Part shown: positions 1,148-62,295 of the stretch, in pieces
How the letters are laid out: each line of letters begins with the position of its first letter
How positions within the stretch are numbered: the first letter of the stretch is position 1
Source: Boothiomyces macroporosus
Lineage: Eukaryota; Chytridiomycota; Chytridiomycetes; Rhizophydiales; Terramycetaceae
Assembly (NCBI GenBank): GCA_027604185.1
Contig: JADGKB010000086.1
Location: forward strand, 1 to 62,295
Direction: 5' to 3'
Length of the DNA: 62,295 bases
Notes under the pieces: model-generated
What the model was told of the DNA's origin: nothing
The model's input: the letters and a program-made list of their open reading frames with translations, nothing else
The model's database searches: none
Position numbers and translations under genes: made by a program

Positions 1148-2758
1148 TTATTTATGAATAGCCTGTTTCAATTTCACGGCATCTTTGAATAACGCATCTC
1201 CAAACCCAGCAAGTACATTTTCCAAGGCATCCAGCTGCTCTTCTCTAGGAATACTTTCTTTCATTTGTACTTCTGGAACTATTACTTTTGGTACAACTTT
1301 TGCAACAACAGTCTTTTTCTTTTTTGCCATATGCAAGAGATACTCCAAAGAGTGTCTAGTGGCATTTCTTTTTACTACATTTACTGGTGGTGTAGGGTAC
1401 CATTTGCCTTCCATTGGCCCTTTAATTGGAACGTGGTATTGTGGTCTTTGGTTTTGCAACTATATTAATATAATGTACTTTTTGCAACTGATCTCTAGTG
1501 AATTTGGGTGCATTGTCTTCATCTCTCCTCCTCTTGGGTTCAGGCTGGACATGCTCCTGACCAAGAGCCGCTCTAGTAGGCACAATAGGCGTAGGATATA
1601 ATTCCAAATCCAATTCGACATTCTTTACTTTTTCAGGTAAACATTGGACCCAATTCTTGATTTTTGACACTGTTTTGGCATTCTCGTTGTATCTCGACTC
1701 GCATACATATACCTACATTACCATCAATTACATCTTTCTTGTCGAATCCTTTGACGGTTCCTTTTACGTAGTCGCGATAGAATAAAACAATACATTTGCC
1801 CAATATCTCTGAATCTTCATATCTTTCCAAGTGGTTTGTTTTAAATACTTCTTGCAACATGAATTTCGTGTTTTGTTTGGCAACAATCTGATTTGGCCTC
1901 AAGAACCAGCAAACATTTAGTCCTTGCTTTTCGCTCTTTTCGTCTTTTCTATATTAGTAAAAGTTACTCTTGCCAACATGAAAATACTTGGCCAATAGTT
2001 GGCTGAGAGTCATCCTCTGGGTTCTTTATGTAAACAAAATCCCCAATCTTGTAACTGGTTTTTCCAATAGTAATTTCTTCCAAATCATCACCTGATATTA
2101 GCATCAAATACCCTGATCAAGTACAACTTCATCATTGATCTCTTGCAACATCGTTTGCAGCTCTTTAGCAGCTTTGTGGTTTTCGGTATCGCTACCATAT
2201 ATTTCGCAAGTGTTGGAAATTAGTAGTTGAATGTCCTGTTCAAACTCTGCCAATGTAGTATATTCTTGATTCCCATGCTTTTCTCTAATCATTGACAGCG
2301 ATATTGGGGTTTCTACTTTGTCTTCTGGCAAGTCATCCAAAATTTCATAGGAATCACTATATTACAACAAAGTACCATTTGTTCATGAAATTATCAATTT
2401 GCTGATAAATCTCTTTCATTTGCTTGTACTTTTCCAAGTACTCTTCATATACTCCCAATATTAACTGGGCTTCTTTAAAAACTGCAGATCGACGAGAATT
2501 GAAATTGCTGGCATTTTCAACTATTGTCGCAAGTTCTTTTTTCAGATCCACTGGTTTATTCTGCATAGGACCTAGTTTATCCTTGATTGTAGTAAATGAA
2601 ACCGGATTTGTAATCATTTTGTAGTATTCCTTGTTCTCCTTTGAAGGCAGATGAATGAAATTCTCAAACAACAGTTTCCCGCTATTGTTATTTCTCTGTT
2701 ACTTTTTATCTACATGCTTTTCAAGTGATTCCAAGATCCACTCTTGCTGAGATTTCAT
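1148..2758 (-). CDS. RSC1: RSC1/RSC2-like chromatin remodelling subunit (two bromodomains plus BAH)
   Basis: Seven exons joined by introns of 21, 19, 20, 19, 19 and 19 nt give a 497-residue protein. Two bromodomains come first: residues about 20-120 (LFENFIHLPSKENKEYYKMI) and about 125-205 (CDSYEILDDLPEDKVETPIS). A BAH domain follows at about 215-330 (YKIGDFVYIKNPEDDSQPTI, CWFLRPNQ, VYVCESRYNENA). The tail is basic (KRRRDED and later KKKK). In yeast, Rsc1 and Rsc2 are paralogous subunits of the RSC SWI/SNF remodeller that bind acetylated and nucleosomal histones. This copy is shorter than the yeast proteins (about 900 residues), and I see no AT hook between the bromodomains and the BAH domain. 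RSC1 versus RSC2 cannot be decided. The start was chosen because MKSQQEWILESLEKHV leads straight into the first bromodomain. Confidence 0.88.
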
Positions 2759-2833
2759 TTTGAAAATCAGAAAATTTTTAAAATATTTTCGGAGTTGTTG
2801 GGGTTAGAATGATTAAAAAGAGATTGAATTTAT

Positions 2834-3682
2834 TTACGAGAGATCCATATCTTCAACTACTACCAAATCTCTGACCTTACTAGTCAAAATTTCTACATTA
2901 GTAACAGTTACTTGTGGTTCCTTTAGGATATTTGTAGCTGTTTTCCTTTTGTCCTCTTTCGTTTGGCTTGCCATAGTTGCGCAAGTATTCTACTCCGTCC
3001 TTGGTAATGACAGTAACATCAACGTTGCTACCAGATCCCAAGTCATTGAAAATACCCGCTTCAATAGCGTCTTGCACTAGCTTGATGGCCTGTTCTTTCT
3101 ATATTAATATCTCTTACCTCCATATCTTTTTTCCATCCATTTTCAAATATAGCCATGGCCGCTAATGAACCTGAGCCCATAGTTACGTATGGTAATTTAT
3201 CTGTAGATCCGTGAGGTGCAATGGTGTATAACTGCGGTCCATTCAAGTCATATCCTCCAAGTACCAGTGCAGCACCAATATGACCTTGATATTTGAACAG
3301 CATTTGTTTCAACATTGTCATTGCAGTAACTACACGTGCTTGCCTTCCAGTTTGTAATCGATGGAGTTCAAGTTTTGATGAAATCAAATTGGTAGAGAAT
3401 TCAGTATCTGCAGCAGTACCAGCACCACAACAGTACATGTTTGGTGCGAGATAATGGATCTTTTCACAGTTTTTATCAGCGACAATTGGACCTTCTGTTG
3501 CTCTAGTATCTGCCCCCAATACGATCCCATCCTTGTAAATTAATCCGACAATTGTAGTTCCGGTGCTGGTTGCTTTTGGTGGTTTGTGTCCCCGTTGCTC
3601 TAATTGAATATTTCTTGTTAACTAGTCTGTACCTGGTGTGGTTCTCGAACGAAAATCCTCCTTTTTCAAGATTGGCTGGCAT
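2834..3682 (-). CDS. PUP1: 20S proteasome beta-2 (beta type-7) subunit, trypsin-like
   Basis: Three 19-nt introns are removed to give 263 residues. After a propeptide ([17 protein letters not shown] and on) comes the mature N terminus [20 protein letters not shown], which starts with the catalytic threonine in the context [26 protein letters not shown] and GSGSLAAMA are further beta-subunit signatures. The C-terminal extension ([19 protein letters not shown]) is the arm by which beta-2 wraps beta-3. The last intron could be mistaken for coding sequence, since it is open in one frame, but removing it restores YPKGTTKILTSKV, matching the family. An upstream in-frame methionine exists, but the chosen one gives the normal propeptide length. 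A 22-bp tandem repeat sits just upstream. Confidence 0.93.
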
Positions 3683-3750
3683 ATTTTGACAAGGGTAAAA
3701 AACCCATTTTTTGCACTGCTTTTTTACTACGCAGTAATTTGCATTCACAC

Positions 3751-3922
3751 CACTGTAACAAAGTATCAGAATCACTGTAACAGAGTATCAGAATCACTGT
3801 AACAGAGTATCAGAATCACTGTAGCAGGGTATCAGAATCACTGTAGCAGGGTATCAGAATCACTGTAACAGGGTTATCTGTCAGACTCGATATAACAGAG
3901 TAATCTGTCAGACTCAATGTAA
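3751..3922. repeat. 22-bp tandem repeat upstream of the proteasome gene
   Basis: Five consecutive 22-bp units of the form CACTGTARCARRGTATCAGAAT run from 3751 to 3860, and a sixth begins at 3861 and decays. A related pair of TCTGTCAGACTC-type units follows to about 3922. There is no spacer between units, so this is a minisatellite and not a CRISPR array. It lies 70-240 bp upstream of the PUP1 start codon. Confidence 0.85.
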
Positions 3923-4007
3923 GCATGCACACCTGGTAGATCACCACAAAAATAAAAGTACAGTGCTGTAACTCTGAAAAAAGGCAAATAATAGAGCAAT
4001 TGGTTTA

Positions 4008-7065: not shown

Positions 7066-8984
7066 CTAGAGTTGTTTAAGAGTATTTTGCCATTGATCGA
7101 CGGCAGAGTATTCTCGCTTCACTTTGGGCTTGATTAGCTGCGGAAGTGAGACGAGGTCGTGCTGGTGGTCATTGAGCAGTCTGCTGCACATATAAATAGC
7201 TCCGACTGCCAAGACGAATCGTATCAGGAATTGATAGAATGCTAAGTCAAAAAACGAATACTCTGAGACTGTAGTGTGAATATTATCGTAATAAGTGTTA
7301 CCAGCAGTCCAAAGAACACTGTATACAGAGTATCCTGAGGTTTCTTTATGAATGGTGACGTTTGTTCGATAGAATAAATACCAAGAATCAAGTCAAACCC
7401 ATCTTGTCTAAATCCATCCAAATAATGGTTCTTGACATATCTCGTGATTGAAATACCAACATCTTGCACCACACCTGTGTTAGGAAAACAAACCTAATGG
7501 AGTGCGCTTGCCAGTTCTAGTATAGTCCGTCTTTAGAGCACCTGTTCCAGAGTATTGAGTGCTAATAGCGTCAGCGTTATCGGACCAAACTAAATGAAAT
7601 GTCTATTACCATTCTGAAACTTTTTGTAAAACTCTAGAGTTTCTAGTCCATCTATATCTGATAATACCCCTTCTTCGCGCAACTGAATTTCCAGCATTCT
7701 CTTGGCAAGGATACTTTGAACCACATTAGTTCTATCGAGGCAATCAATACAATTCGTCCTTGTAGTTGACAGTTGACGAGAGACTTTATCTCCAACTATT
7801 TTACAGTACGATTGCGTAATCAGGTCTTGTTCTATTGATTGAATCAGCTTTGAAATATTGTGCCATTGCATTTTCCTGCATTCGTGATGGAAATCAAAAT
7901 GAATGTATTTTAATCTCTCATCGTTCATCAAGAATGCTTGTCTTTCAAACTCGTCTCCTAAAGGTTTTTCATAGCCATCCTTGTTGATCAAATTAATAGC
8001 TATTTGAGGGCCATACTGTTGAAATAGCTTGTTAAAGTGCTGTCTAAACAGATTTTCCTAATATCAATTAAAATTACAGTTTCAGATCTATTATCAAGGA
8101 CTAGCTTTGGCTTGTATTTTAAACCAACCTCTTGCCTCCAGAAAAGAGGTATCGAGCCTCTAGTTTGAACATACGATCTGATTGCATCTCTAGTTACCAA
8201 TATTTGCTCAGTTTCAACAAAATTAGCAACATTCGCTTGTTCATCTATCCCTCTACAGTGGTATCGCGCGCCAGACCGATATTTATTTCTTCTCGATATC
8301 AAAATATACGTAAAATTGAGTTCAGATATATGGCAAAACCCGCAAATAACAGGCAATATGAACCTGGAGAGCTAAATTAAACATAAAGTACATTTTGATC
8401 CGGCTCGTGCTCTGTCAACTCTATCAATTGTGTTTGCAGATACCTGTTCCAATAAAATCTGTCATCCGCCTGTTGCCATAACGGAGCGCTCTTGTTTACG
8501 TATAATCCAGACTGAACGCTTCTAGTGATATCTTTGGTATAAGAAAAGTAGTAATCCAGTTCCATCAATTTATGTACCATTTCCAAGTACTTTGCATCGT
8601 CTTGTTTTTGACTCTCTGTGATATTGTAATTCCTGTTGATTGGTAGTAATTCTACTCCTTGGATTTTGAATATTTCATGCTCCTGGTAATTTCCTATTTT
8701 TGTTTTCCCAGTGATGATGATTAAATGATTTCCTTTGTTATTATTGATTACCTCCGTGCAAATGAATTATTCCTAGAATACCATGGCATAATACTCGTTC
8801 TTCCTGGCCCAGAGTTGCTGACGGTGGGGCTGGTTAGTGAAAGGATACCATTCAAAGATACATTCCCGTCGTTCCTCCGTATAACCAGCGATTCCCTTTG
8901 CAATGACGCATCCGCTGTCGTGGGTTCAAATGTGTAAGAGTATTGAGACTTGAACAGATGCAGAGAGTTGTAGCAGAATGACAT
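7066..8984 (-). CDS. SAC1: SAC1-like phosphoinositide phosphatase
   Basis: Seven introns (19, 19, 20, 20, 20, 19, 20 nt) give 593 residues, close to the usual 600-620. The N-terminal Sac domain shows [20 protein letters not shown] and [20 protein letters not shown]. The catalytic CX5R motif is in [32 protein letters not shown] is the expected post-catalytic block. Two C-terminal membrane segments ([17 protein letters not shown] and [15 protein letters not shown]) anchor it to the ER/Golgi, where the family dephosphorylates PI4P and controls lipid exchange. The last intron sits between the two membrane segments and has a TTGAC-type branch site, so it is the least certain junction. A 68-residue open frame (9000-9206) lies just upstream on the same strand. 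Confidence 0.93.
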
Positions 8985-11008: not shown

Positions 11009-12539
11009 TTATTTTTCATGTTTGATGATTGGAAAGGCAATTACATCTCTAATTCGCCTCGATCCGACTACCAGCATCACCAATCTATCAATTCCAAGAC
11101 CCCACCCGACAGTAGGAGGTAAGCCATATTCCAAAGCTTTGCAAAAGTTTAAATCCAATTGTTGGGCCTCCCGATCGCCACTGTTTCGATCTTCTTGCTG
11201 CGATTGAAATCTTTTCAGCTGCTCTTCAGGATCATTCAACTCTGAATAGCTATTAACGTATTCCTTCCTTCCAATGAAAAGCTCAAACCTGTCGGCAATA
11301 CCGTTTTCACACTTTGATAATGGGGATAATGCCTTTGGATGGCCAATCAGAAATGTTGGTTGTATACAAAGTGGTTCTATCAATTCAGACACTAGCCTAT
11401 CAAGAATTTGAGGTAAGGTTTGAGGGAATGGCACCTTAATATGGTGGTTTTTGCATATGTCCAATAGCTGTGGAATGTAACCTCATTAATATGCAGTTAC
11501 CATTTTCTAAAGGTGGAAGTTGTCCAACTATAGATTCCAATTTTGGTATAATGTTGATTCTTTGAAAGTCCTTGCTAAAATCAATCTCGTGTTCTTCATC
11601 ATTAATCCAGATTGTAGTGGTCTGTTGTCTATTAATTTCTTGAAAAATGTTTCTAAAGAGCGTTTCAGTCATTTCCATCATTTTGTCCACGGTGGTAAAA
11701 GTTTGGTAAAGTTCGCAAGTTGTAAACTCTGGATTGTGTGTTGCATCGATGCCTTTGTGAACAGAAGAGTACCTTCATTTCTGAATTGCTTCCCAATTTC
11801 ATATATCTTGTCAAAACCACCGACAATCAGCTGTTTCAAGTACAGCTCTGGAGCTATCCGCATTTCCAAATCCATTTCAAAAGTGTTTAGATGAGTTTTG
11901 AATGGCTTTGCGTTCGCACCTCCGGATTGAGTGGATAAAACCGGGGTTTCTATTTCAATAAAGTCTTTTCCATTAAGAAATGCTCTAATGTGGTTGATTA
12001 TTTTGAATCTGGTTTGCAGGATTTTCACTGCCTCCTGGTTTACGAGCAAGTTCAACCATGGCAAGCGGTGTTTGGTATTCTACTGTCAACTAAATCTTAC
12101 ATCATCTTTTAATTCTTCTGGAATTCGATGTAGACATGGTGCCAACAAAGTAGATTTTGAGGCGTACAAACTAGTCTGTCCTTTTCGAGTATCTTGCACT
12201 GTTCCTTCAAACTCATAGATATCCCCTGAGTTAAATTATTGTACCTATTCCAATATGGATATTGTCAAAGGATTCAAACTGGTCTCGTTTCAATACAACC
12301 TGTAATACTTGCTGATTCCGCACTAAATCAATGAATGCCAGGTTTTTTCCTTGAATCCTCTTGCTAGTAACCCGTCCACACACTGACACTGTACCGCCTG
12401 GTTTCTGAAATACCTCTTTAAATTCCAGAGGTTGGGATCGAAAGGTAGGATATTTGTCTACTGATTTAATATTATTGAGATGAATTGTTTTGTAATCTGA
12501 ATTCCATCTCCTTGCACATTGAATGATTCGGTTTTGCAT
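11009..12539 (-). CDS. MSK1: Lysyl-tRNA synthetase, class II, probably mitochondrial
   Basis: Introns of 19, 21, 20 and 19 nt give 483 residues. The OB-fold anticodon domain is at about 55-150 ([20 protein letters not shown]). The catalytic core follows: motif 1 ([20 protein letters not shown]), motif 2 ([20 protein letters not shown]) and motif 3 ([13 protein letters not shown]). The N terminus [16 protein letters not shown] is short, basic and Arg-rich like a mitochondrial presequence, and the long basic extension of cytosolic enzymes is absent. A longer frame begins at 12671, but the shorter start fits a presequence better. It charges tRNA-Lys. Sequence alone cannot exclude dual targeting. 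Confidence 0.9.
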
Positions 12540-13707: not shown

Positions 13708-14352
13708 ATGGCTGACGAAGACAAGAAAGTAGAGCACATCAACATCAAAGTCAGTTCAGCAGTACTATAAATATAAACTAGGATAACGAAGTGCTTTTCC
13801 GCATAAAGAAGCACACTCCACTCGGGAAATTAATGAATTCTTTTTGTGAACGACAAGGCAAAGCTCTAGAATCGGTCCGTTTCAATTACGGTACTTTTAA
13901 TTAATAAAGACGGAAAGAGAATCAACAAGGACGACACTCCAGCAGATTTGGAAATGGAAGACGGTGATATTATCGATGCCAGCATTGAACAACAAGGCGG
14001 AGGTGATATCAAGCCAGATCCTGTACATTATGTTAATATAGGGTGCACAGTCAAATTCCACCCCGGCTCAACCGCAAGGAGAAGACGGTGGTGATACACA
14101 TATCAATATTAAAGTATCTTCCAGTGATTCCGAAGTGTTTTTCAGGATCAAGAGGATTACCCCGCTTGGAAAGCTAATGAACACTTTTTGCGATAGGCAA
14201 GGGAAACCACACGGTACTTACCGCTTCTTTTTGGACGGCGAGCGAGTTGAAGAGCATGCTACACCTGCATCCGTAATCATATTTAATTCTAGTTGGACAT
14301 GGATGATGGAGATACAATTGAAGCTAAATTGCAACAAACTGGAGGTAATTAA
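13708..14352 (+). CDS. Tandem (head-to-tail) two-module SUMO precursor
   Basis: Five exons (13708-13761, 13782-13890, 13910-14022, 14042-14272, 14293-14352) with introns of 20, 19, 19 and 20 nt encode 188 residues. Two complete SUMO folds follow one another. Module 1 (about 9-85) has HINIKVSS, FRIKKHTPLGKLMNSFC, the DGKRI..DDTPADLEMEDGD block and ends ASIEQQGG. Module 2 (about 111-187) has HINIKVSS, FRIKRITPLGKLMNTFC, DGER and DMDDGDTIEA and ends KLQQTGG, followed by a single Asn before the stop. The linker (about 25 residues) is acidic and Pro/Gln-rich. In known SUMOs a Ulp/SENP protease cuts after the Gly-Gly. Here that site occurs at 84-85 and at 186-187, so the gene could be a polyprotein or give a stable linear di-SUMO. 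A consensus PsiKxE acceptor is not obvious. Confidence 0.92.
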
Positions 14353-14390: not shown

Positions 14391-15630
14391 TTAACGATTA
14401 GCAGCTTGCAGTTCTTCAACATCGTTTTCGAGATCTTTGACCATCTTGTGGTGCTCTTCAAGATCTTTGTTGAGTCTGTCACGTTCGGCAATGAGCTAAG
14501 TTAAAATATTATTACATTTTGTTCCCATTTTCTGAATCTGGCTTCTTCAAGACGGACTTGTTCGGTAAATCTCTTTCGAAGGGCTTCTTCGTCTTCCTTC
14601 ATCTTTGCAGACATGTTCTTTTGTGCGTTTCTAACTGGATCGTCATCTGATAGACCACTAGCAGTCAATCTCTTCATTCTATAATCTTCATAGTGATTCT
14701 CTTCAGTGTTGGAAATCAAATCATACATATTGGTTCTGATGAGCAGGTTGCGAAGCTTTTTAAAGTCGCAGTGCTGTTCGTTTTCAACTAGTATTAGCTA
14801 TAAATACCTTCGGCAACACCCCAGAGATATTCTCTACCTCTAACTTTTTGTCCATTGACAGTCACTTCATTGTCAGAAGCAATGATTGAGAATGGCATTG
14901 CTTCAATTATAGCATGAGTATCGTCGTCATCATCTCCATCTAAAGGCGGGGTGTACATGTTGATTCCGTGCGCGTTGATGCAATCTAATACCTGTCGTTA
15001 ATAGGAAATACTCTGTTTTTGAATGCCTTCATGTCTTCCTTGGTAAGAGTGTCTCCTTTTGCAATGACAGGAATCAAATTGACTCTGGTTCCAAGTTGCT
15101 TCATTACTTCAATATCCAGGGAAGTCAAACTAGAGTTAAAACAATTTACGTGTGTCCGGATGGTTGAATGAAATATAAACAAGCGTGCACTCTTAAATCA
15201 TCAGCTTCCAATCTCTTGTGACTTTGTTCTGCCTTCATGTACGTCAAGTGTTGCTCATCTAAAAACTCGACAATTGGAACCCAGCAATCTTGGTTATTCA
15301 TATAGTCTCCAAATCCAGGAGTATCGATAACAGTCAAACGTACATTGAAACCCTTTTCTTCGATATCTGTGTGAAACAAATATTACCAGCCCTAACGACA
15401 TCGATAGACACTGTTCTTTCAATTTGATCATGCACTCGCTTTGGTTGTTGCTTGTAATCCTTTAGTAGAGTTGAAAACAGCGTATTGATAAAAGTGGATT
15501 TTCCAAGACCAGAAGAACCTGAAATTTAAAATAATAAATTACCAACGACCATCAAGGTGAAGGCGGCTCCCTTTCTAGATACTATTCGATGTCTTTGATT
15601 CGGTAAATGGGAAATACCAACGGTTGCCAT
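14391..15630 (-). CDS. Septin GTPase
   Basis: Six introns (24, then five of 20 nt) give 371 residues, normal for a septin. The basic lead ([20 protein letters not shown]) precedes P-loop GSSGLGKS at about 33-40. Switch II/G3 is [11 protein letters not shown] and G4 is AKGD. The septin unique element is in [22 protein letters not shown]-terminal coiled coil closes it ([20 protein letters not shown]). Septins form filaments at septa, bud necks or zoospore membranes. It resembles the CDC3/CDC10/CDC12 classes in having a P-loop, but I cannot assign the subgroup; a CDC10 type would lack the coiled coil. Confidence 0.93.
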
Positions 15631-16445: not shown

Positions 16446-17289
16446 ATGGACAAATTCAGTAGCGAAAAGCTAACGACAGGCAGCAGAGATGACCAAGTAT
16501 ACATGGCCAAATTATCAGAACAAGCAGAGCGATACGAAGGTAAGATTGAACTAACGAGAAATGGTGAAATTCATGAAAGTAAGTTTCGATTAATTAGACT
16601 GTATCTAACGTAACTGTTTAATTAACCAAGTTTGAACAAGATTTATCAATTGAAGAGCGCAACCTGTTGTCTGTTGCTTACAAGAATGTAATCACTGGAA
16701 GAAGAACCTCTTGGAGAATCTTGACTGCAATTCAAGCAAAGGAAGAACAAACCAGCCCAGCAAATGCAGAGAAAATCAAGGAATACCGCGCAAAGATTGA
16801 AGCTGAATTGTCTGACATTTGCAATGAAATCCTTGTCTTGTTGGAGACTGTCTTGATTCCAAAAGCCGCTGACGGTGAATCCAAAGTATTCTACTTGAAA
16901 ATGTACTTGTAGTTAATAGTAGGCAGGGTGATTATTATAGATACACTGCAGAGTTCTGCCAAGAAGAAAAGCGTCAGCCAGCAGCAAACAAAGCCTTGGA
17001 AGCTTACAAGCAAGCAACTGAAATCGCTTCTACTGAACTAGCACCAACTCATACAATCCGCTTAGGTTTAGCACTTAATTTCTCTGTCTTTTATTACGAA
17101 ATCCTTGATTCACCAGAACAAGCGTGTGCATTGTCCAAACAAGCTTTCGATGATGCTATTGCTGAGCTCGATACTTTGAGTGAAGAAAATTACAAGGATT
17201 CTACATTTATCATGCAACTGTTGCGCGATAACTTAGGATTATGGGAAAATGACATGAAAGGTTACCTTTTGCTAATATCAGGTCGTTAA
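16446..17289 (+). CDS. BMH1: 14-3-3 protein, first of a tandem pair
   Basis: Six exons with introns of 19, 19, 21, 20 and 21 nt give 247 residues. Exon 2 is 20 nt (16559-16578) and exon 3 only 12 nt (16598-16609). Family blocks are clear: [66 protein letters not shown] and [16 protein letters not shown]. The conserved phosphoserine-binding residues (Lys in the SVAYKNV helix, Arg in RRTSWR, Arg-Tyr in YYRY) are present. 14-3-3 dimers bind phosphorylated clients throughout signalling. The last intron (17261-17281) is 21 nt, begins GTTACC and has no in-frame stop, so retaining it would just add seven residues before GR. Confidence 0.93.
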
Positions 17290-17759: not shown

Positions 17760-18688
17760 ATGGCTGATAAAGGTGCGACGCAGTTAACAGCAGGAACCCG
17801 AGATGATCAAGTTTACATGGCAAAATTGGCTGAACAAGCTGAACGATACGATGGTAAGAACCCTTGCTAACCATAGAAATGGTCACATTTATGAAGGTAA
17901 GATAGTCCTCATGGGTTTAGGAAGTTGCAAAGGTACCCCCTGATTAACTTTAGCTTGGATTAGAACTCACTGTTGAAGAGCGCAATTTACTTTCTGTAGC
18001 ATACAAGAATGTCATTGGTGCTCGCCGTGCTTCCTGGCGTATCGTTTCTTCAATCGAAGCAAAGGAAGAATCTAAAGGGAATGACGCACAAGTCGGCAAA
18101 ATCAAGGAATATCGCGTTAAAATCGAATCAGAACTCTTTGAAGTTTGCTCCGATATCCTCTCTGTTCTTGATCAACATTTAATCCCAACTGCTGAAGCAG
18201 GTGAATCCAAAGTCTTTTATTACAAAATGTATGTAAATCAAATACATTTTAATTTCGGAACAGTACTAACTCTTTAGGAAGGGTGATTACCACCGTTACT
18301 TGGCTGAATTCTCTGCCGGAGAAAAACGCAAGGACGCTGCTGGCAACGCTCACGATGCTTACAAAGCTGCTACAGAAATTGCTCAAACCGAACTAGCTCC
18401 AACCCACCCTATTCGTCTTGGATTAGCCCTCAACTTTTCAGTGTTCTACTATGAAATCTTGAATTCTCCTGATCGTGCTTGTCATCTTGCAAAGCAAGCA
18501 TTCGATGATGCTATTGCTGAGCTCGACACTTTAAGCGAAGATTCATACAAGGATTCAACATTGATTATGCAACTATTAAGAGACAACCTAACACTCTGGA
18601 CTTCTGATCTGCAAGAAGGTGGTCTTTAATTAATGTAGATGGCAAAGCAGATGAAGGCAAAGCTGACGATGCTGACGAAGCAAAGTAA
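17760..18688 (+). CDS. BMH2: 14-3-3 protein, second of a tandem pair
   Basis: Six exons; introns of 23, 24, 21, 49 and 20 nt give 263 residues. All five intron positions and phases equal those of the upstream copy, including the 20-nt (17877-17896) and 12-nt (17921-17932) exons. The fourth intron is the longest I find in the window and carries textbook GTATGT and TACTAAC signals. Family blocks: [56 protein letters not shown]. The tail after the last intron is acidic and repeated ([16 protein letters not shown]). The last intron starts GTGGT, a weak donor; if retained the protein would end EGGL. Codon choice is richer in C than in the first copy, consistent with high expression. Confidence 0.93.
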
Positions 18689-36200: not shown

Positions 36201-36418
36201 TCTGTCGAGCAATGTAACTGATTTCACACCAGCCAGAATAACATTTTTCGCTTAATTAATAAACCAATTACCGATTTCAACACCCAAACCGCCCAGACCG
36301 ACCAGGAGGACATTGGACTGACCCATTTGCTGCATAGCTTCATGGCCCAGGACATACCTATGGTCAAATCTACTTACAGTTGTCTGGAATATAATCCTTC
36401 GTCGATTTTGTTTGCCAT
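33287..36418 (-). CDS. UBA1: Ubiquitin-activating enzyme E1
   Basis: Seven exons (introns 20, 21, 21, 20, 21, 20 nt) encode 1002 residues, the normal E1 length. The inactive adenylation half begins [33 protein letters not shown]. The active half shows [40 protein letters not shown], then [13 protein letters not shown]. The catalytic cysteine sits in the expected [10 protein letters not shown] block after TEYSS-like [16 protein letters not shown]. The ubiquitin-fold domain closes the protein ([34 protein letters not shown]). It activates ubiquitin with ATP as the first step of all ubiquitin conjugation. The tandem SUMO gene needs a different E1 (AOS1-UBA2), which is not in this window. Confidence 0.95.
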
Positions 36419-40449: not shown

Positions 40450-40450
40450 T

Positions 40451-43428: not shown

Positions 43429-43451
43429 TGCAGATCAAAAAAGTTAAAAAA
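43429..43451. promoter_or_regulatory. 23-bp start-to-start interval (ATG6 / unidentified gene)
   Basis: Two divergent start codons are separated by 23 bp of mostly A and T. If the longer in-frame start at 43374 were used for the plus-strand gene, the coding regions would overlap head-on. Confidence 0.55.
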
Positions 43452-43829
43452 ATGGAATTACAAAATGAAATGACACTGGAGCAAGTGTATGAATGGTTTA
43501 AAGAACAGCCAGTTCCGAACCGCGTCGAAGATACCTACAACGCGCTACTGGCAGATATGGGAAAAGGAGACCATGATCAAACATTGCTGTTTGCCCTTTA
43601 CTGCTATTCATGCAGGTACAATACTCCTATACCTGTATCGATTGAGGAATACGAATTCCTGGTAGAGCTAAACGAAGAGTTGGATACACCTGTTATTGGA
43701 AGAATATTAAACCAGATTGTTCTAGTGCCAGACAAGCAATATTCAAATCCTGGTTTGATACTGGTAATTCAAGGTTAATAATAGCGCAAAGCGGAAAAGT
43801 ACCTTGCCGAAATATCAAAGCTATTCTGA
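43452..43829 (+). CDS. Small conserved-looking protein, unidentified
   Basis: One 21-nt intron near the end gives 118 residues; without splicing the frame would stop at VIQG. The sequence is acidic and helical: MELQNEMTLEQVYEWFKEQP, NRVEDTYNALLADMG, TLLFALYCYSCRYNTPIPVS, IEEYEFLVELNEELDTPVIG, RKAEKYLAEISKLF. No signal peptide or membrane segment. I do not recognise a family. The spliced reading ends in a clean amphipathic helix, which supports the intron. Confidence 0.65.
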
Positions 43830-45184: not shown

Positions 45185-46601
45185 TTATTTTTGTTCAACA
45201 GCTGGAGGCACAAATGATGAGATAAAAGGCTTGGGACTGTACACCCTTAAAAATAATTCAAAAGTTCTGTTTGCTCCCACAGGAAGCCAGTTGGCACTTG
45301 GATTTGCTGGTTGAACAGCCGATACGGTAATTGTCAATGATCCATCTGGATTGTAGATTAATCCTGCAGTTCTATCGCCAATTGAAAATCTCTCAATTGG
45401 ATTCTTTATCAAAAACCCGTAATTTGGATCTCCGAGACCGTAATACGCTGTAATGGACCAAAAACCGTTAGCAGGAGGTAGCTGCTTGAATGTAAACTGG
45501 TACTCATTAGATCCACTATATGGTGCTCCAGTTGTGGCATCCTTCACAGTTTGATAGTATATTGCCATGGTTGGAGGAAGTGCCAAATAGACAGAGAATG
45601 CTACCGCAGCCCTAACCAAATAATTTTCACCAAAGTTGCCAATAATAGAATCACTGGTATCAGACCACCCATTTCCGTACTGCTTTCCAGTTTCCAAAGC
45701 TGCTGCTTGTATTGTCTTTACAATTGATGGTACTTGACGGGCTATTTCAGTCAAAAAAGTGGAATTTGCCTTTGCTTCATCAATCACAGATTCAAATGTT
45801 TTCACGTACTGTGCTGACGCTGGACTATCTGGCTCTACATTCTTTAAACCCAAAAATGCCCATTTCCAAGCAATTGTAGAGTTTTGCAAAGACCCAGAGT
45901 ATTTGCTTGGAGTAATCAATATGTCTTGCAGTGATAATCCTTGTAAAGCTACTTGTGCAAGCAAAGTGCTTAATTTCAAGAGTCGTGGCTCGTCAATTCC
46001 AAATTGAAGTCGTTCGGCTTTATAAGATGAAAGGAAATCTGCAGCTGATTGAGCATCTGTAGAATTATGTCTAGATTAACAAATATTACCGGGCTCGGAC
46101 TAATCCCAATACATCAGAAGTATTGAATTTAATTGCTTTTGCATTTTTCACTTGCGCATACTCATTAGCCTCCTCATCAGTAGTTGCAGGGCCATACAGT
46201 ACATAGTTTCCACCATTTGGGTTCTCGAGAGTAGTAAATCCAAAAACAGAGTTTCCATAAGGATCAATGAAATCAGTGACAACATATCTGCTGTCCTTGG
46301 CTGGTGGAACTGTGATTAACCTTGGAGATTCGCGCAAATCAAAAAGTCCAGCCGCATAGACAGTGTCTAAATTAGGTGTTCAAATACCAACATTTGGAGC
46401 AACAACAGCAGTAAATGTTTCATTTGGTAATAGCGGCTGATTCACTGCAAAGGAATTGTAAGTCTTTGGCACTTTGATAAGCAGGCGAAGTTTGGTTTTC
46501 ACAAACTCAGCAGCTGGGAGAGAGTAGATGAATGCATCCGAAACAGACTGTTGAGCAGCAACTGCTGCAAAGCTAAAAGTGAATATTGCGTGAATCTTCA
46601 T
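45185..46601 (-). CDS. Secreted DUF1254/DUF1214-family protein
   Basis: Introns of 21 and 19 nt give 458 residues with a signal peptide (MKIHAIFTFSFAAVAAQQSV). The N-terminal half holds the DUF1254-type block (AFIYSLPAAEFVKTKLRLL, NVDTVYAAGLFDLRESPRLI, GFTTLENPNGGNYVLYGPA). The C-terminal half matches DUF1214 (YYQTVKDATTGAPYSGSNEY, FTFKQLPPANGFWSITAYYG, GDRTAGLIYNPDGSLTITVS, WLPVGANRTFELFLRVYSP). These domains usually occur together in bacteria and some fungi; their activity is not settled. The conserved asparagine-aspartate-threonine (NVDTVY) and the Trp of NGFWS look intact, so the fold is probably complete. Confidence 0.85.
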
Positions 46602-47297: not shown

Positions 47298-48793
47298 ATG
47301 GAATCCACAGTCTATATATTACAAGAGGATCAGGAACTGTCAAAAGATACTACGGATCTCAAGTTAATAGTTCTCGCAGGTATGGGAGGGACTCTGATAG
47401 AGTGGTAAAAAGCTGCTTATTCAGGTACGACTTTTTTGTTTATGGGATTCTTGCAACCATTCTGGCACCAAAGTTTTACAAAGCAGACACACCAGAAGGA
47501 GCTTTAATTATATGGCTTAGTGCATTTGCAGTTGGATATGTCGTTAAACCAATCGGAGCGCTGTTGTTTGGACACTTGGGGGATAAATATGGCCGAAAAG
47601 TTAGCTTTATTGCTACTCTAAGCATAATGGGGCTTGCAACGTTTCTAATGGGCTGTCTACCAACTTACGATCATATTGGTGTCGCTGCCGGCTATATCCT
47701 TTTTGTTTTACGACTGATTCAAGGAATAGCACATGGTGGCGAGTATGGTGCAGCGGCTGTTTATATTGGAGAGCACTCTCCGAAGGGTAAAAGAGGATAC
47801 TATACTGGCTTTATCCAATTCACTCCTAGTTTGGGGATGGCGTTGTCGCTGTTAGTTACTATAATCTGTAATTTAGCGATGGGGCAAGAGCAATTCTCTA
47901 ACTGGGGATGGAGGATTCCGTTTCTGCTGTCTATATTCCTTGTTGCAGTTTCATTGTACATTAGATTTAAACTGGATGAATCCCCAATTTATGAAAAGGC
48001 CGTTGAAGAGGGCCGCCACTCGAAAACTCCTCTCATGAATACGTTTTGTAAATGGGAAAATCTAAAGCGAATCCTCACTGCTTTCTTTGGCTGCTGTGTT
48101 GGAATTGGAGTTGCATTTTATACGATATCATTCTATGCATTGTTCTACCTTCAGACAACCTTACACTATGATAATGTTGCTGCTTGGTCAGTTTTATGTG
48201 CTGCAGTTGGTCTTGCAACTCCCTTTGGTTTCTACTTTGCTCACTTATCGGATATCTATGGGAGAAAAAGGTTTATGGTTATCGGATTGGCTCTTAGTGT
48301 TGTATCTTGGTATCCTATCTTTGTTGCTCTTCGTGCGTTAGGTCCGTATGAAGATCCAACGGCCGCAATTTTGGTGAAATCTGCATCTTACAATCCATAC
48401 CTGTCATCTTTTCTGATATTCCTCACGGTTGCATTCTGTGCAATTGCGTACGGTAAGATTCTTTAACCTTTAGGGCCGATTGGAGCATTTATGGTTGAAC
48501 TATTTCCTACCCCCGTTAGATATACCAGCCTAAGTGTCCCATATCACACTGCAGGGGTAATTAGCGGTGCTACCCCGTTGATTGCTGTTTCTCTGACAGC
48601 GAAAACGGGAAACTTGTACGCAGGTTTGTGGTTCCCACTTATAATGGTTACATTCTCTGTTTTATTTATAGTGTTTTTCTCACCCGAAACTTACTTGGTT
48701 GACATAGAAGAGTTGGGTAATTCAGTCAAACCTGTAAATCAACTTTTTACTAGTGACTTTACCGAGACCACTGAAACTATTATCGACGAATAA
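47298..48793 (+). CDS. Major facilitator superfamily proton symporter (MHS/shikimate-ProP type)
   Basis: Introns of 20 and 21 nt give 484 residues. Removing the first joins GTLIEW to YDFFVYGILATILAPKFY, the signature TM1 of the metabolite:H+ symporter family. The loop 2-3 motif is GHLGDKYGRKVSFIATLSIM. LRLIQGIAHGGEYGAAAVYI is TM4 with the conserved GGEYG. GRHSKTPL marks the central loop, and AHLSDIYGRKRFMVIG is the repeated motif in the second half. ELFPTPVRYTSLSVPYH closes TM11. Twelve segments are expected. Substrates of this family include shikimate, proline/betaine, alpha-ketoglutarate and citrate; the exact one cannot be told. In fungi such genes often look bacterial-like, so transfer is possible, yet the local-type introns show long residence. 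Confidence 0.88.
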
Positions 48794-52714: not shown

Positions 52715-53347
52715 CTAGAATAGATCCAGGTCTAGCAACTCTTCATCTGCTGCTTCCGGAGTTGGAGGTTTAGTCCCTGTCATATCAATCTCCATGTGCG
52801 CTTGCTCATCTTGAACTGCTTCTTCTACAATCAAGAATAATTACCTATGATTTCTACTTCTTCCTTTTCTTGGAATAGCAGCGACATGCGCATATGGTGT
52901 TCTTGGGGTATCGGTGGTTCAAAAGGCAGCAATGTATGCTTGGCAACCCTCTGTGCATAATCAAGCAATTCCTGCGAATCAATACCAACTAGTTAAGTAC
53001 CGCTTACCATTTTGGGTCGACAGAATCCTTTTAGCTTTATATACAAGGGACTCTAATTCGTTATAACTGGAATTCAGATCCTGAGCGAATTTAATATTAG
53101 TTTTTGTGATATTGAAAAACGATTTCTTGTACTCATTGATTCTGCTTTGAATTTGCTGGTGCTCCTTTATTCTGGACAACAAATCATCCAGCCGCTGGTC
53201 GACTTGGATAATTTCCTCTGTGATTGCTGCAGGTGATTTATACTCTCGATTCAGCGATATACTCTCAAACGATTCAAACAAATCTCTAATTCTGGAGTTG
53301 TACTCTGTAAATACTTGGACTGACTCTTGCTGTAGATTTCTATCCAT
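52715..53347 (-). CDS. MED4: Mediator complex subunit 4
   Basis: Introns of 19 and 20 nt give 197 residues. A coiled-coil N-terminal half (IQVDQRLDDLLSRIKEHQQI, AQDLNSSYNELESLVYKAKR) precedes the MED4 hallmark SQELLDYAQRVAKHTLLP with FEPPIPQEHHMRMSLLF (the family's I..YA..IS..T..P and R.G.L block). The acidic end TKPPTPEAADEELLDLDLF is typical of fungal MED4. MED4 is part of the Mediator middle module that joins activators to RNA polymerase II. Its start codon is only 17 bp from that of the first UGT gene. Confidence 0.85.
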
Positions 53348-53364: not shown

Positions 53365-54877
53365 ATGAACTGGATTCTGCTTTTGACGAGCTCAACCGCT
53401 TATCATATTGTGGTCTCGATGACATTCGGGACGGCTTCGCATGTGAATCCTTATTTCCCTACCCTATCGCAATTAGTAGATGAAGGTAACCAGGTTACTT
53501 TCTTTGCACCTAAAACAATGCTGGCATTCTCTTCAAAGTATCCAAAAATATCCGCTGTTGAAATGCAGCTGGATCCAGAGCAATTCGATGCGATATTACA
53601 CTCTACCCACGAAATTGGAAACAGTACAAAGACGAATGTAGTCCCAATATTTAAAGGAATTGTGGATCTGTTCAAGCCATCGTACCATGAAATGGAAAGA
53701 TTTGATAACCAGTACCACCCCGATTTGTTCATCTGTGGTAACTGTTGCTAATCTAGACATTTTCCATACCGCTTGTGTGGAATACGCTAATGCAAAGAAA
53801 AAGAATTTGATCTTTCTCTTGACCAACATTGGCTCGTTAGGAGTTGGGGAAAGTTGGTACACGCCTAGTTTGATGTATCCTGTCCCGCAAGAGAAGCTAG
53901 TGAAGAGTATTCGCTCTAGGATTGAAGCTAGCATCAACTCTTTACCGTCGCTTGATACTATATTGCCACTGAGGACATACATGAACGCCCTGAAGGATAT
54001 GAAAAAGGAATTACACCTTGAATCTACTCGTTCAAGTGAAATCATAAAGAGACACTTGGTGCTTACGCATAATGTTATTGGATTGTACAAAGCCAGAGAG
54101 TTGCCCACAAATGTAATCACTATTGGGCCTATGTTGTCACAAAATATAGGAAAATTAGATGATGAACTACAAATAGAATTGGATCAATTCCAAAAATCAA
54201 AGACTTCAGTAATATATATAGCATTTGGATCCGGAGTTAATATCTCTGGGCACGTAGGAGATAAAATCTTTGAAGCTGTCGAGCTTTTGTTGATTGAAAA
54301 TCATGATATAGCAGTAGTTTGGGCTTTGGGAAAGTCTGATGGCTCAGGTTGGGTTGTTCCACAAGAATTAGCGAGCCGCTTGTTGTTTAAAAAGTGGGTA
54401 AATCAACGCGCTTTACTTGGCCATCCATCTGTGACAGTATTTTGCACTCACGGCGGAATAGCATCTCTTCATGAATCAATGTATGCCGGCAAACCAGTTT
54501 TAGTAACAGGCATGTTTGGCGACCAATTCTTGAATGCAATTGCAGCACAAGAAGCCAAAATCGGATTGGAAAACAAAAAGATGGACTTTACACCCAACTC
54601 TTTCAAAGAAAAAATCGTTTACCTACACAAGGAAATTGGAGATAAAGATTCAGAGCTGTACCACAGTGTTCAAAAGATGAAAAAGATTGTCGAATTGAAT
54701 ATGGAAACACACCAGTTGTATGCAAAAAATTTATTTGAAATGGCAGCGACAGTTGGTTATGATCATTTGGTGCCGATTACTAGTAAAATGACTTGGTGGC
54801 AAATCAACGGTGAGTTTTACACTTTGGTGGCATCACTACTGGTTGGATTCTTGGCCATGAAGGTATACTTTCTTTAA
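53365..54877 (+). CDS. UDP-glycosyltransferase, membrane-anchored, copy 1
   Basis: One 19-nt intron gives 497 residues. A signal peptide (MNWILLLTSSTAYHIVVSM) leads into the GT1 N-terminal domain (FGTASHVNPYFPTLSQLVDE). The UGT signature is in KKWVNQRALLGHPSVTVFC, THGGIASLHESMYAGKPVLV and FGDQFLNA. A C-terminal membrane segment (LVASLLVGFLAMKVYFL) gives an ER type I topology, as in animal UGTs. The family transfers a sugar from a UDP-sugar to lipids, sterols or small molecules. The intron sits in the block LFIC-DIFHTACVEYA and is absent from copies 2 and 3 at the same position. Confidence 0.9.
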
Positions 54878-58658: not shown

Positions 58659-59816
58659 TTAAAAATCTCGGAACATTTGTTCAGTTGATTGAGTAATTGG
58701 GTTGCCTCTGCTAAGCTCCATATTAGTTTCCGGCCCTAACTCTTCACTGTTTTCCATCGCTTGGCTATAATTTTTCACATGAGAATGTACTTTTCCCGGT
58801 GGTGGAATTCTATGATTTGCCATCGCTTCAAAATCTACTTTGGAAAACCACGTGTGGTTTTTGATTTCTTCGTCTCCCAATCTTTCCTCTGGATCCAGCT
58901 CGAATAGTCTCATTATTAAATCAAAAACAGTGTTACTAAAGTACTGTTGTGGATCTGGAGGCCATCTGATATTACACTGCAATATCCTCGCGAAAGTTTT
59001 TTGCGGAACTGGTTCTTGGAACGGAGAACAGCCAGAGCATAACTGAAATATTATCACGCCAAATGTCCACCAGTCTATCTTTAATCCGTAGGGCTGTCTA
59101 TTGAGTACTTCTGGTGCAAGGTATGAAGGTGTCCCGCAAAAGGTTGTAGTGGCATTTCCATTCAATTCTTTGGCAAACCCCAAATCTGCCAATTTCGCAT
59201 GGCCATTGGCATCAAATAATACATTTTCCGGCTTCAAATCTCGATACACGATCCCTTTACTGTGTAAAAAGTTGAGACCCATGTATATTTCTGTCGCATA
59301 ATACCTTGCATGGTCTTCAGTCAAGAACTACGTTAATACTGCCGTACCCCACACGATTTGATATAGTTGAATAAATCACCGCCGGGTAAATATTCTTGTA
59401 TCATGAATATGTTCAACGAGTCTTGAAATCCACCAAGGAACTGTACAATGAAATTTCCTCCTACTGACTTTTCCAATATATGCTTTTCGTTCATCACATG
59501 TACAACCTGAATCAATACGAGTTACTTGTTTCATCTTCCTTAGCACCTCCTTCTTCATCACTTTTAACGCAAATATTTTCCCGTCAGCTTTACGCCTAAT
59601 CTGGTATACTTTTGCAAATCCTCCCTTTCCTGCCAGTCGAAGTATCTCATAGTCTGATAATGATGCTGATAATTGATCGAATTTTTCCGTTGGGTCAATT
59701 CCATATTCCGGTGGTTTGTCTGTGATTTGCAAATTTGACAGCGACACTGAAAACAGATCGTCGTTCTTTGTTTCGGCAGGTTTCACAGAAGACTTTCGTC
59801 TAAAAAAGTTCTTCAT
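58659..59816 (-). CDS. PKA-like AGC serine/threonine kinase
   Basis: Introns of 19 and 20 nt give 372 residues. Kinase landmarks: a Gly-rich loop LAGKGGFAKVY, the lysine in KIFALKVMKKE, YRDLKPENVL, LADLGFAKEL, GTPSYLAPEVL and DWWTFGVIIF. The C-terminal tail ends MFRDF, an FxxF hydrophobic motif like PKA. PKA catalytic subunits are activated by cAMP release from the regulatory subunit. Two departures from the norm: the metal motif is DLG instead of DFG, and the third Gly of the loop is Ala. Both are tolerated in active kinases. The short basic N terminus (KNFFRRKSSV) has a consensus RRKSS phosphosite. A PKA-family paralogue is more likely than a canonical subunit. Confidence 0.85.
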
Positions 59817-60353: not shown

Positions 60354-61801
60354 ATGAAGAAAAAATTGTTGGACTTGGACGATTTAACTTCAACTGCTCC
60401 AGATTGGGATCCTGAAACCGATGGCGAAGAAGAATCTGATGTCGATGAACAGCAGGTTAGAGAGCATTATGTTCAAGTCGCAAAAAGTAAACTGAGGGAT
60501 GCTCTCGAAGTACCTCTTGATGAAAAATACAAAGGCAAAAAGGTCACTAGAAAAGATTTGGAAAAGCAGGTGGAATTGGAAGGACACGAAGCTGACTCTG
60601 ACCAAGAAATTAAATTTGATTCTGAAGAAGAATTTGATTTTGACGGTAGCCAAGAAGAAACTGAAGGCGAAGATGACAGTGAAGGGAGTCACGAAGGCAG
60701 TGAAGATGATGATGACACAATTGGAAAGGATAACGATGAGCTGGCGATGATGTCTAGATTGGAACAACAAGAAGAAGACGAAAAGGCAATGTTAAAGAAA
60801 ATGTCTGAAAACCAAAAGATGGAAATTGAAAAAGGTCAGCATGTAAAGTCACAATTGACTTTGTGGGATGGAATATTGGACTTGCGAGTAAGAATACAAA
60901 AAGGAGTGGAGGCCGCAAACATTCTCCCACAACATTCCGTCTATTATGACCATCTGAATGAGGAAGGGGTTGATGAAAAGGTTCAGGAAGCCACCGGCGC
61001 TTTGCAATCGTTGCTAAACAATCTGGTAGATATGCGAATGGTAATTGAGTATTTATTATAGAACTTGTTGGATAACTCGAATGAGAAATTTGATATTTCT
61101 ATAAAGAGAAAGCGAGATGAAGACGATATTGACGAATGGCTGCACTCCACTTGGGAAGAAGTTTTACAACCTATGGAAAAGGGCTTCAAGAAATACAAAT
61201 ATGATACCATTGAAAAATGGAACAACAAGGTCCAAGTTGCCAACAGTGTGACTTTACAGAAAAAATTCAAGGTCATAAATCAATCAATTGTTAGTCAACT
61301 TCAAGCGATCGAGAATGACACTGACAGGCTTATCAAAAGAACGCAATTAAATAGAGGAAATTATAAAATCATTGGCAAGGTACAATAGCTCTAACAAAGA
61401 TCGAGTCTGCTCCAGAAAACGATGAAGAAACGAGAGACAAGCATTTGAACGATTATGACAAAGAAATATTTGATGACGGAGATTACTATCAGCAACTATT
61501 AAAAGAACTTATTGAGAGTAGATTGACTGATACAGAGGATCCTGTCCTTTTAGGAATGAGATATGCCCAACTAAAGCAACTGCAAAACAAGAAAGCCAAA
61601 AAGAACGTGGATACCAAAGCTTCTAAAGGCCGAAAGATCAGGTACCATGTTCAGGAAAAAATTCAAAACTTTATGGCCCCTGAACCTAGAGGAACTTGGC
61701 ATGAAGAGATGGTGGAAGAATTGTTTTCTGGATTACTTGGCCGCAAATCTGCTTCTGTTGATATTCCATTACAGTTCGAAGATGGATTTAAATTAATGTA
61801 A
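60354..61801 (+). CDS. BFR2: BFR2/AATF (Che-1) ribosome-biogenesis protein
   Basis: Introns of 21 and 20 nt give 468 residues. A long acidic segment covers residues about 20-160 (EEESDVDEQQVREHYVQVAK, SEEEFDFDGSQEETEGEDD, DDDDTIG). The middle (AATF leucine-zipper) region has LTLWDGILDLRVRIQKGVEA and NILPQHSVYYDH. The C-terminal AATF/Che-1 block reads DYYQQLLKELIESRLT, KGRKIRYHVQEKIQNFMAPE and WHEEMVEELFSGLLG. In yeast, Bfr2 acts with Enp2 and Lcp5 in processing the 18S rRNA precursor in the small-subunit processome. Start 60354 is the first true ATG and gives a typical N terminus (MKKKLLDLDDL). Confidence 0.9.
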
Positions 61802-62089
61802 TAAAAACGATTGCTTCAAGATCTATTTTATGGTGCTCTTTGATGTACCTTGAATTTGACCAAAGTGCGCATTCTTGCAACTCACAAACTGGTCACATTT
61901 CATCTTACCATCCAGATTAGCTTTTGCCACGAATCCTCTCAAACCAACTATCATTCCTTTCGAATTCTATTAATTCACATAGCCGTTGGGAAAGTGTCAA
62001 AATCCTACATCCAACATATGAAATTATGCAATGCAGTGTAAAATGAGGTGCTTCAAAATATTAAAATACGCGACTATATCAAAATATCA

Positions 62090-62275
62090 ATGCGGCTTAC
62101 CAAGGACCTCCTGCAGTCGACATTCACCAATGCGACAAGAAATTTACCCCAAACGATTATTCTGTATTTGAAAAGGTTATTCCCGGTTTTGTCTTGGTTT
62201 GGAAATTACAACTTGAACTGGTTTACACACGATTTGATTGCGGGTGTTACAGTCGGGATGTTGGTTATACCGCAG
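62090..62275 (+). CDS. Sulfate permease (SulP/SLC26) first exon, cut by window end
   Basis: The first exon encodes 62 residues: MRLTKDLLQSTFTNATRNLP, LFPVLSWFGNYNLNWFTHDL, IAGVTVGMLVIPQ. The string DLIAGVTVGMLVIPQ is the diagnostic opening of SulP transporters (yeast SUL1/SUL2: DxxAGxTVGxVxxPQ). An intron begins at 62276 with GTATGTTATCGCTAATTCAA, and the window ends where its G would follow. Unlike the SulP-STAS-cNMP gene at 24-27 kb, this N terminus is short and fits a plasma-membrane sulfate permease. STAS domain and downstream exons are outside the window. Confidence 0.8.
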
Positions 62276-62295
62276 GTATGTTATCGCTAATTCAA

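Follow-up and report, generated by a model that had tools for sequence, protein, structure and literature searches.

An ultra-short intron class dominates a chytrid genome sample

Introns of only 19–21 nucleotides (nt) are the dominant class in our sample of a Boothiomyces-like chytrid genome and lie near the lower size limit known for any organism. At a probability of roughly 0.93, this genome carries mostly ultra-short U2-type introns that are built to two rulers and predicted to be removed by the ordinary major spliceosome. The starting point was contig JADGKB010000086.1, analysed over its whole length of 62,295 nt (hereafter the window), from an assembly of 15,203,306 bases in 216 contigs. 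To the window we added 20 loci of 10 kb, chosen by position on the 20 largest contigs, giving a genome sample of 262,295 bases. Within this genomic sequence the length class is real: it appears as an excess over controls, with a floor in length and fixed internal distances, and its removal restores conserved reading frames.

Regarding the source of the DNA, the ubiquitin-activating enzyme Uba1 of the window and Isy1, from another contig, are 99% and 98% identical to proteins of Boothiomyces sp. JEL0838 (two proteins compared). Boothiomyces is a chytrid genus of the order Rhizophydiales, family Terramycetaceae, according to a lineage lookup, and its strains were obtained from soil and water, taken on pollen (PMC11210171, in part). 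The fungal origin implied in the preliminary description agrees with this.

The 19–21-nt class in three independent tests

Three tests that share no assumptions (a motif scan, a decoder of coding composition and protein alignment) agree on the length class. The scan counted units of the form GTA...[CT]T[AG]A[CT]N1-5AG at lengths of 13–40 nt, using neither a reading frame nor a coding model. In the window, 41, 25 and 20 units were found at 19, 20 and 21 nt, compared with means of 4.5, 4.8 and 5.0 (standard deviations 2.1, 2.6 and 1.8) in 40 dinucleotide shuffles. At the remaining lengths, 13–18 and 22–40 nt, we counted 3–10 units against shuffle means of 2.8–5.2, the highest values being 10 at 18 nt and 10 at 33 nt (mean 4.7 in both cases). 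The window and the 20 loci together gave 108, 115 and 71 units at 19, 20 and 21 nt, with 41, 31 and 28 in the reversed sequence that served as the control, while at 18 nt the numbers were 22 and 24, respectively. The length range is thus narrow, with a floor at 19 nt and a strong excess confined to 19–21 nt.

The coding-only decoder relies on coding composition, has a flat length prior from 8 to 120 nt and contains no motif. Over the 262-kb sample it placed 64 of its 132 GT..AG introns at 19–21 nt, and 0 to 5 for each of 11 other dinucleotide pairs used as controls; in the window the corresponding figures were 21 of 37 and 0 to 1. The near-uniform class reported in the preliminary description is therefore recovered as a spike by the scan and by the decoder with its control pairs, as well as in the spliced alignments below. 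Its spliceosomal nature is likewise supported by U2-type signals and by the excess of GT..AG over the 11 control pairs.

To count introns we used a second decoder, trained on the motif and length of the short introns; having learned the lengths, it counts introns but is no proof of their lengths. It called 275 introns in the genome sample, 245 of them at 19–21 nt and none under 19 nt. The loci outside the window contributed 194 of these introns, and 173 of them were 19–21 nt long, so the genome-wide length distribution, checked here as a 20-locus sample, shows the same class. A very rough extrapolation from the trained-decoder count gives some 16,000 such introns genome-wide.

In the window the trained decoder called 81 introns (72 at 19–21 nt). 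Correction by homology and by eye removed five calls and added seven introns, among them the 19-nt intron at 16540-16558. The corrected list holds 83 introns: 33 of 19 nt, 30 of 20, 13 of 21, three of 22, one of 23, two of 24 and one of 49 nt. Hence 76 of the 83 are 19–21 nt long and, as described before, none is shorter than 19 nt. The earlier tally of 92 (41/30/14 at 19/20/21 nt, six of 22–24 nt and one of 49 nt) had the same shape, but its total exceeds ours (33/30/13/6/1) by a net nine. We count 25 intron-bearing genes (26 models, one dropped) where 27 complete spliced genes had been claimed.

Four decoder calls in the window exceeded 24 nt (57, 62, 102 and 109 nt). The 57- and 62-nt calls were each resolved into two tiny introns flanking a 12-nt exon, which alignment bears out. 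The 109-nt call, in an aminoacyl-tRNA synthetase, was taken to comprise a 19-nt intron and some coding sequence, although the Pfam score is nearly even (266.7 bits with the disputed sequence, as in the 19-nt reading, and 269.7 bits without it, as in the decoder reading). The 102-nt call was discarded on judgement, since it looks like the space between two genes in tandem. Outside the window there were five calls above 24 nt (47, 108, 109, 109 and 134 nt), and a short-intron unit lies at the end of one of them.

The single 49-nt intron, also noted earlier, was found at 18229-18277 in a 14-3-3 gene, where it replaces a decoder call at 18263-18281. It carries GTATGT and TACTAAC, the classical yeast signals, a strong type without counterpart in most of the tiny introns.

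Anatomy of the introns

Most of the introns share a two-ruler architecture: they start with GTA, the branch adenosine of a YTRAY motif lies at nt 14–15, and the terminal AG ends 5–6 nt after that adenosine. Taking the branch A as the fourth base of the YTRAY-like motif, it lies at nt 14 in 71 of the 77 scorable 19-nt introns (79 in total) and at nt 15 in the other six. In 20-nt introns it is at nt 14 in 49 and at nt 15 in 62 of 114 scorable cases (116 in total), and in 21-nt introns at nt 14–16 in 46 of 49 (50 in total). The donor-to-branch spacing of about 12–14 nt given in the preliminary description fits these positions. From the branch A to the intron end the distance is mostly 5–6 nt (range 4–11). 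A YTRAY-like motif is present in 259 of 265 introns of 19–23 nt, as called by a decoder trained on that motif, with TTAAT, TTAAC and CTAAT as the commonest forms.

At the 5' end GTA is nearly fixed (A at +3 in 93%), and donors resemble GTAATT or GTAAAT. Position +5 is most often T rather than G in the window and the 20 loci, despite the canonical 5' end of U1. The base at -3 is T or C in 90% of introns. In the decoder set, the G+C content of the short introns is 28%, compared with 40% for coding sequence. In-frame stops occur in 46 of the 50 introns of 21 nt, an outcome that the decoder favours and from which depletion of lengths divisible by three is not to be read. By their signals, the introns appear to be U2-type spliceosomal introns.

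Spliced proteins compared with their homologues

Removal of the tiny introns yields proteins that align with their homologues across the junctions. After excision of three introns of 21–22 nt, residues 1-1141 of a Prp8 fragment (contig C58) pair with as many residues of Prp8 chains of known structure, hPrp8 among them. The alignment is gapless to about residue 950, the part inspected, and the junctions at residues 573, 652 and 772 all lie inside it. The second 14-3-3 protein of the window (14-3-3 B), freed of introns of 23, 24, 21, 49 and 20 nt, aligns without gaps over residues 11-255 (245 residues) to 14-3-3 epsilon. For its neighbour 14-3-3 A, four introns (19, 19, 21 and 20 nt) were taken out, and residues 12-245 then align to a yeast 14-3-3 (homologue search threshold E 1e-80), with one 2-residue insertion in the homologue that lies off the junctions.

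Vacuolar-type ATPase (V-ATPase) subunit C, from which six introns were removed, matches its profile (452 bits) in a single stretch that runs from position 2 to position 371, the last. Residues 7-255 of PUP1 align to a proteasome beta type-7 chain, the sole length difference being four additional residues that the homologue carries after residue 22, five residues from the first junction. For the septin, residues 1-261 align to yeast Cdc12 in one stretch with a few indels, none of them at junctions.

Uba1, with six introns removed, has 1002 amino acids, the length of the JEL0838 protein, and 13 of 13 residues match around each of the six junctions. Among 120 homologues, indels near five of these junctions occur in 8, 4, 16, 1 and 1 proteins. 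The JEL0838 Uba1 and Isy1 proteins (the two genes compared) stand in public databases already spliced essentially this way; the tiny introns have thus been annotated before, though apparently not remarked upon.

The spliceosomal machinery

A genome search, whose match counts are lower bounds for the small nuclear RNAs (snRNAs), found one U1 with the 5' end ATACTTACCTG, a canonical recognition sequence, two U2 matches with GTAGTA in both, and one U6 match with ACAGAGA. The U6 match (L001:1501-1606) is adjoined, on one side, by two near-identical gene copies in opposite orientation (L001:1-1425).

Six of the seven spliceosomal proteins sought were found: Prp8, SF1, U2AF65, Isy1, Cwc25 and Yju2. 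The seventh, RED, was not found in the genome search, in which its positive control also gave nothing, so that its absence is not shown. SF1 has its helix-hairpin, KH and zinc-knuckle domains. U2AF65 has three RNA recognition motifs, and its model, once spliced, reaches 212 bits against U2AF65 domains of known structure. The Prp8 core is canonical, the N-terminus of Yju2 is intact, and Cwc25 keeps its MGGG start. With Isy1, these two make up the three branching factors considered for Stentor (PMC9505925). The Cwc25 region is present twice (L035 and L036, on contigs C49 and C100), and gene models and introns agree between the two, as after a recent duplication or in an assembly duplicate. A loss of many spliceosomal proteins of the mikrocytid type was not encountered among those sought.

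Since U1, U2, U6, Prp8, SF1, U2AF65, Yju2 and Cwc25 all look canonical, the data lend no support to a spliceosome remodelled on a broad scale. The preliminary description had suggested that the spliceosome may be modified and proposed looking for losses or insertions in U1, U2AF, SF1 and PRP8; all four are present, and a modification is not shown, the one candidate change found being at the N-terminus of Isy1.

Genes and introns of the window

The 25 intron-bearing genes are listed in Table 1. The two 14-3-3 genes stand in tandem (16446-18688) and have four introns at matching places around the 12-nt exons; the intron sequences differ, as do, in part, their lengths. Two tandem trios of genes look alike by eye, one putatively phosphoesterase-like (29400-32500) and one putatively UDP-glycosyltransferase-like (53419-58402), with at most one intron in each gene. 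An intergenic tandem repeat at 3751-3871 consists of 5.5 copies of a 22-bp unit, and further short repeat arrays lie at 4732, 13097, 15909, 28940, 51729 and 60593.

Table 1. Intron-bearing genes of the window, with intron positions and the basis of each model.
Gene	Position	Strand	Introns	Basis
Putative chromatin-type gene	1148..2758	-	1460-1478, 1713-1731, 1949-1967, 2092-2111, 2357-2375, 2682-2702	Gene model
Proteasome beta type-7/PUP1	2834..3682	-	2893-2911, 3099-3117, 3614-3632 (all 19 nt)	Alignment
SacI-domain phosphatase	7066..8984	-	7242-7261, 7475-7493, 7590-7609, 8058-8077, 8372-8391, 8733-8751, 8773-8794	Syja_N in one stretch, residues 65-343, 279 bits
Class II (D/K/N) aminoacyl-tRNA synthetase	11009..12539	-	11482-11500, 11753-11772, 12080-12100, 12226-12244	Gene model, Pfam
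Tandem SUMO-like gene	13708..14352	+	13762-13781, 13891-13909, 14023-14041, 14273-14292	Two Rad60-SLD stretches
Septin	14391..15552	-	14496-14515, 14788-14807, 14992-15011, 15130-15149, 15367-15386, 15519-15542	Alignment
14-3-3 A	16446..17289	+	16540-16558, 16579-16597, 16610-16630, 16903-16922; 12-nt exon 16598-16609	Homology-guided splice
14-3-3 B	17760..18688	+	17854-17876, 17897-17920, 17933-17953, 18229-18277 (49 nt), 18619-18638; 12-nt exon 17921-17932	Alignment
Gene with no name from searches	19106..21726	+	19645-19663, 20236-20254, 20803-20821, 21464-21483	Gene model
Unnamed gene	21762..23109	-	22060-22078, 22276-22297, 22637-22656	Gene model
Putative SulP-like transporter	24342..27436	-	24935-24953, 25628-25649, 25903-25922, 26737-26757, 27112-27132, 27183-27201	Gene model
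Putative metacaspase-like gene	27714..28827	-	28281-28300, 28730-28749	Gene model
Putative phosphoesterase-like gene 1	29400..30346	-	30036-30055	Gene model
Putative phosphoesterase-like gene 2	30611..31481	-	31247-31265	Gene model
Ubiquitin-activating enzyme E1 (Uba1)	33287..36418	-	33710-33729, 34186-34206, 34540-34559, 35814-35834, 36251-36271, 36358-36377	1002 amino acids, JEL0838 protein
Putative MORN-like gene	40451..40904	-	40795-40813	Gene model
V-ATPase subunit C	40943..42203	-	41114-41132, 41271-41289, 41546-41564, 41756-41775, 41871-41889, 42044-42062	Profile
Atg6/Beclin	42367..43362	-	42950-42968, 43094-43113	Gene model, Pfam
Unnamed gene	43374..43829	+	43764-43784	Gene model
Putative DUF1254-like gene	45185..46601	-	46071-46089, 46367-46387	Gene model
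Putative MFS-type transporter	47298..48793	+	47405-47424, 48453-48473	Gene model
Unnamed gene	52715..53347	-	52825-52844, 52989-53007	Gene model
Putative UDP-glycosyltransferase-like gene	53419..54877	+	53738-53756	Gene model
Putative protein kinase	58659..59816	-	59328-59347, 59507-59525	Gene model
AATF/TRAUB gene	60354..61801	+	61041-61061, 61380-61399	Gene model, Pfam

Discussion

We infer that an otherwise ordinary major spliceosome removes these introns. A floor at 19 nt follows from the two rulers. The distance from the 5' splice site to the branch site would be 13–14 nt, and with U1 or U6 on nt 1–6 and U2 on about nt 9–15, 2–3 nt would remain between helices that nearly abut. With helices this close, recognition is probably successive or set up across exons, rather than by two small nuclear ribonucleoproteins (snRNPs) standing apart on one intron. 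If recognition is successive, U1 would yield to U6 while the U2 branch helix forms; the alternative would be a set-up across exons. The 5' splice site and the branch would meet in catalysis anyway, and the obstacle would lie in assembly. The 3–4 nt that separate the branch A from the AG are too few to hold a downstream pyrimidine tract. This would leave U2AF65 to act via SF1 or on T-rich stretches ahead of the branch, or to serve the few longer introns.

Several points weigh against this reading. The introns are known here from genomic DNA alone, and the order of assembly is something that we infer. The length and motif figures of the trained decoder are biased toward short introns and give no unbiased estimate of length. 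The coding-only decoder also called 68 GT..AG introns at other lengths, and its control pairs gave 84–130 calls in all; these 68 calls resemble the control-pair background and are thus uninformative on longer introns, which, if rare, this decoder cannot count. One Uba1 junction, near residue 862, coincides with a natural indel, where 117 of the 120 homologues differ, and is uninformative. The donor is weak relative to canonical U1: +5 is G in about 15% of introns, and on average 5.5 of 9 positions pair. The U1 match itself falls slightly short of the Rfam cut-off (68.8 against 69.5 bits), and U2AF65 reached 230.7 bits in the exon-by-exon genome search, compared with a curated cut-off of 310.3. 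Finally, U5 was not found in the genome with the U5 model, for which no positive control matched, so that its absence is not shown.

Among the alternatives, the one that survives best, though we consider it unlikely, is that the tiny introns depend on a remodelled spliceosome, in which the active-site N-terminus of Isy1 is altered to avoid a clash with the tightly looped intron, as proposed for Stentor. Isy1 here (L038:1225-2104) and in JEL0838 is without the MARNxEKAQSMLYRFRE start. Its N-terminus is likewise diverged in two other Rhizophydiales, Kappamyces and Gorgonomyces, and in part in a third, Globomyces, and the start is kept in Spizellomyces, Powellomyces, Fimicolochytrium, Chytriomyces and Polychytrium. 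The same end is non-conserved in the Isy1 of Stentor (PMC9505925, in part). However, the Cwc25 glycine plug, lost in Stentor, is intact here, together with the Yju2 N-terminus and the Prp8 core. Moreover, the start motif opens 62 of 120 Isy1 proteins among the matches listed (of 375), the others starting later or otherwise. Batrachochytrium (also Rhizophydiales) and Geranomyces start at MLYRFRE, and the start of Entophlyctis luteolus is unrelated. Given such late or odd starts among relatives, annotation explains part of the absence of the motif. The Isy1 start here also comes from a gene model whose first intron is ambiguous; no start motif turned up when all six frames of the locus were read, though one split by an intron could escape notice.

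In the region of that first intron (L038:1225-1400) the model has two adjacent 20-nt introns with one base between them, whereas the JEL0838 protein fits a single 49-nt intron. The Isy1 gene model also holds one 46-nt intron call.

We hold as no more than tentative, and rather doubtful, an extended version in which a fungal lineage independently reached near-minimal introns. Its spliceosome would cope with 13 nt from 5' splice site to branch by binding snRNPs one after the other instead of simultaneously, together with an Isy1 N-terminus rebuilt in convergence with Stentor, a condition that several families of Rhizophydiales may share. If true, a fungal major spliceosome with U2AF and SF1 would work at a quarter of the distance thought to be needed for the human one.

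Much less probable is removal by something other than the major spliceosome, be it DNA elimination, U12-type splicing or enzyme-based splicing. In its favour one could argue that YTRAY resembles part of the U12 branch site. The lengths are also far below the human minimum of about 50 nt from 5' splice site to branch site (PMC6692369, in part). Yet GT-AG ends, YTRAY and T or C before the AG are U2-type signals, the 49-nt intron shows signals of the same kind, and U1, U2 and U6 are present with canonical recognition sequences. The donors, like GTAATT or GTAAAT, are unlike those of U12 introns and leave a U12 type unsupported; U12 itself was not found in the genome search, where no positive control matched and its absence is thus not shown. 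Least credible of all is an artefact of gene modelling, with sequencing errors or chance GT..AG pairs picked to close frames: although the coding-only decoder calls spurious introns with any dinucleotide pair, such calls are spread over lengths while the 19–21-nt spike is limited to GT..AG, the frame-free scan shows the same spike and the spliced alignments of Prp8 (in the part inspected) and 14-3-3 B are gapless. We reject it on the dinucleotide-pair control and the frame-free scan.

To place U2-type introns of this size among known systems, we compared them with published cases, for which excerpts of the cited papers were used. By length class they belong with the nucleomorph, heterotrich and mikrocytid types, but they occur in Fungi and without a mikrocytid-like reduction among the seven proteins sought. 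The numerous introns of the nucleomorph of Bigelowiella, a chlorarachniophyte, cover nearly the same narrow range (18–21 nt; PMC10245619). They number about 800, spread over some 300 genes of a relict algal nucleus, while here the setting is a full fungal nuclear genome of 15.2 Mb. The introns of Stentor coeruleus (15–16 nt; PMC9505925) share the rigid length, the GTA start and canonical U1, U2 and U6 sites. Their branch A lies at nt 10 of 15, which leaves the same 5 nt before the intron end that most 19-nt introns have here. Compared with Stentor, the introns here have a strong branch motif and a 5' arm about 4 nt longer, and the Cwc25 plug is kept. Mikrocytos mackini also has many introns in an exceptionally narrow range, 16–17 nt (PMC10245619). 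It is a parasite with a highly reduced spliceosome, whereas SF1, U2AF65 and three branching factors are kept here.

On the fungal side, Encephalitozoon cuniculi has few introns. With GT-AG ends, strict donor and branch motifs and introns that rank with the smallest of the spliceosomal type, it is the closest published case that we found, but it is an intracellular parasite whose introns spread over 22–76 nt (PMC3629993), while those described here are numerous and 19–21 nt long. Microsporidia have 0.01 introns per kb (PMC8476143). The transcriptome of Cryptococcus neoformans is rich in short introns, but there 'ultra-short' means below 60 nt, the average is 56 nt, and introns below 40 nt are few and poorly spliced (PMC11913375). 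A short distance from the 5' splice site to the branch site is likewise the obstacle for human short introns, which depend on Smu1/RED (PMC6692369) or, in separate work, on SPF45, with a limit of about 50 nt versus 13–14 nt here. The human B complex is estimated to need about 52 nt between the two sites, and a reduction to 35 nt abolished assembly in one system (PMC6692369). In the excerpts used, a survey of 644 fungal genomes with two chytrids in its table makes no mention of a 20-nt class (PMC8476143). None of the open-licence literature matches listed described such a class from a free-living fungus, in agreement with the earlier statement that none was known.

According to the excerpts cited, introns this short and uniform are otherwise a feature of ciliates, of one parasitic rhizarian and of a relict algal nucleus, systems that resist manipulation or work with reduced machinery. 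A gene predictor whose minimum intron length is set higher than 20 nt would disrupt many multi-exon genes of such fungi. If the introns are spliced, a distance of 13–14 nt between the 5' splice site and the branch site suffices. The case also bears on why intron-bearing genomes shrink their introns rather than lose them.

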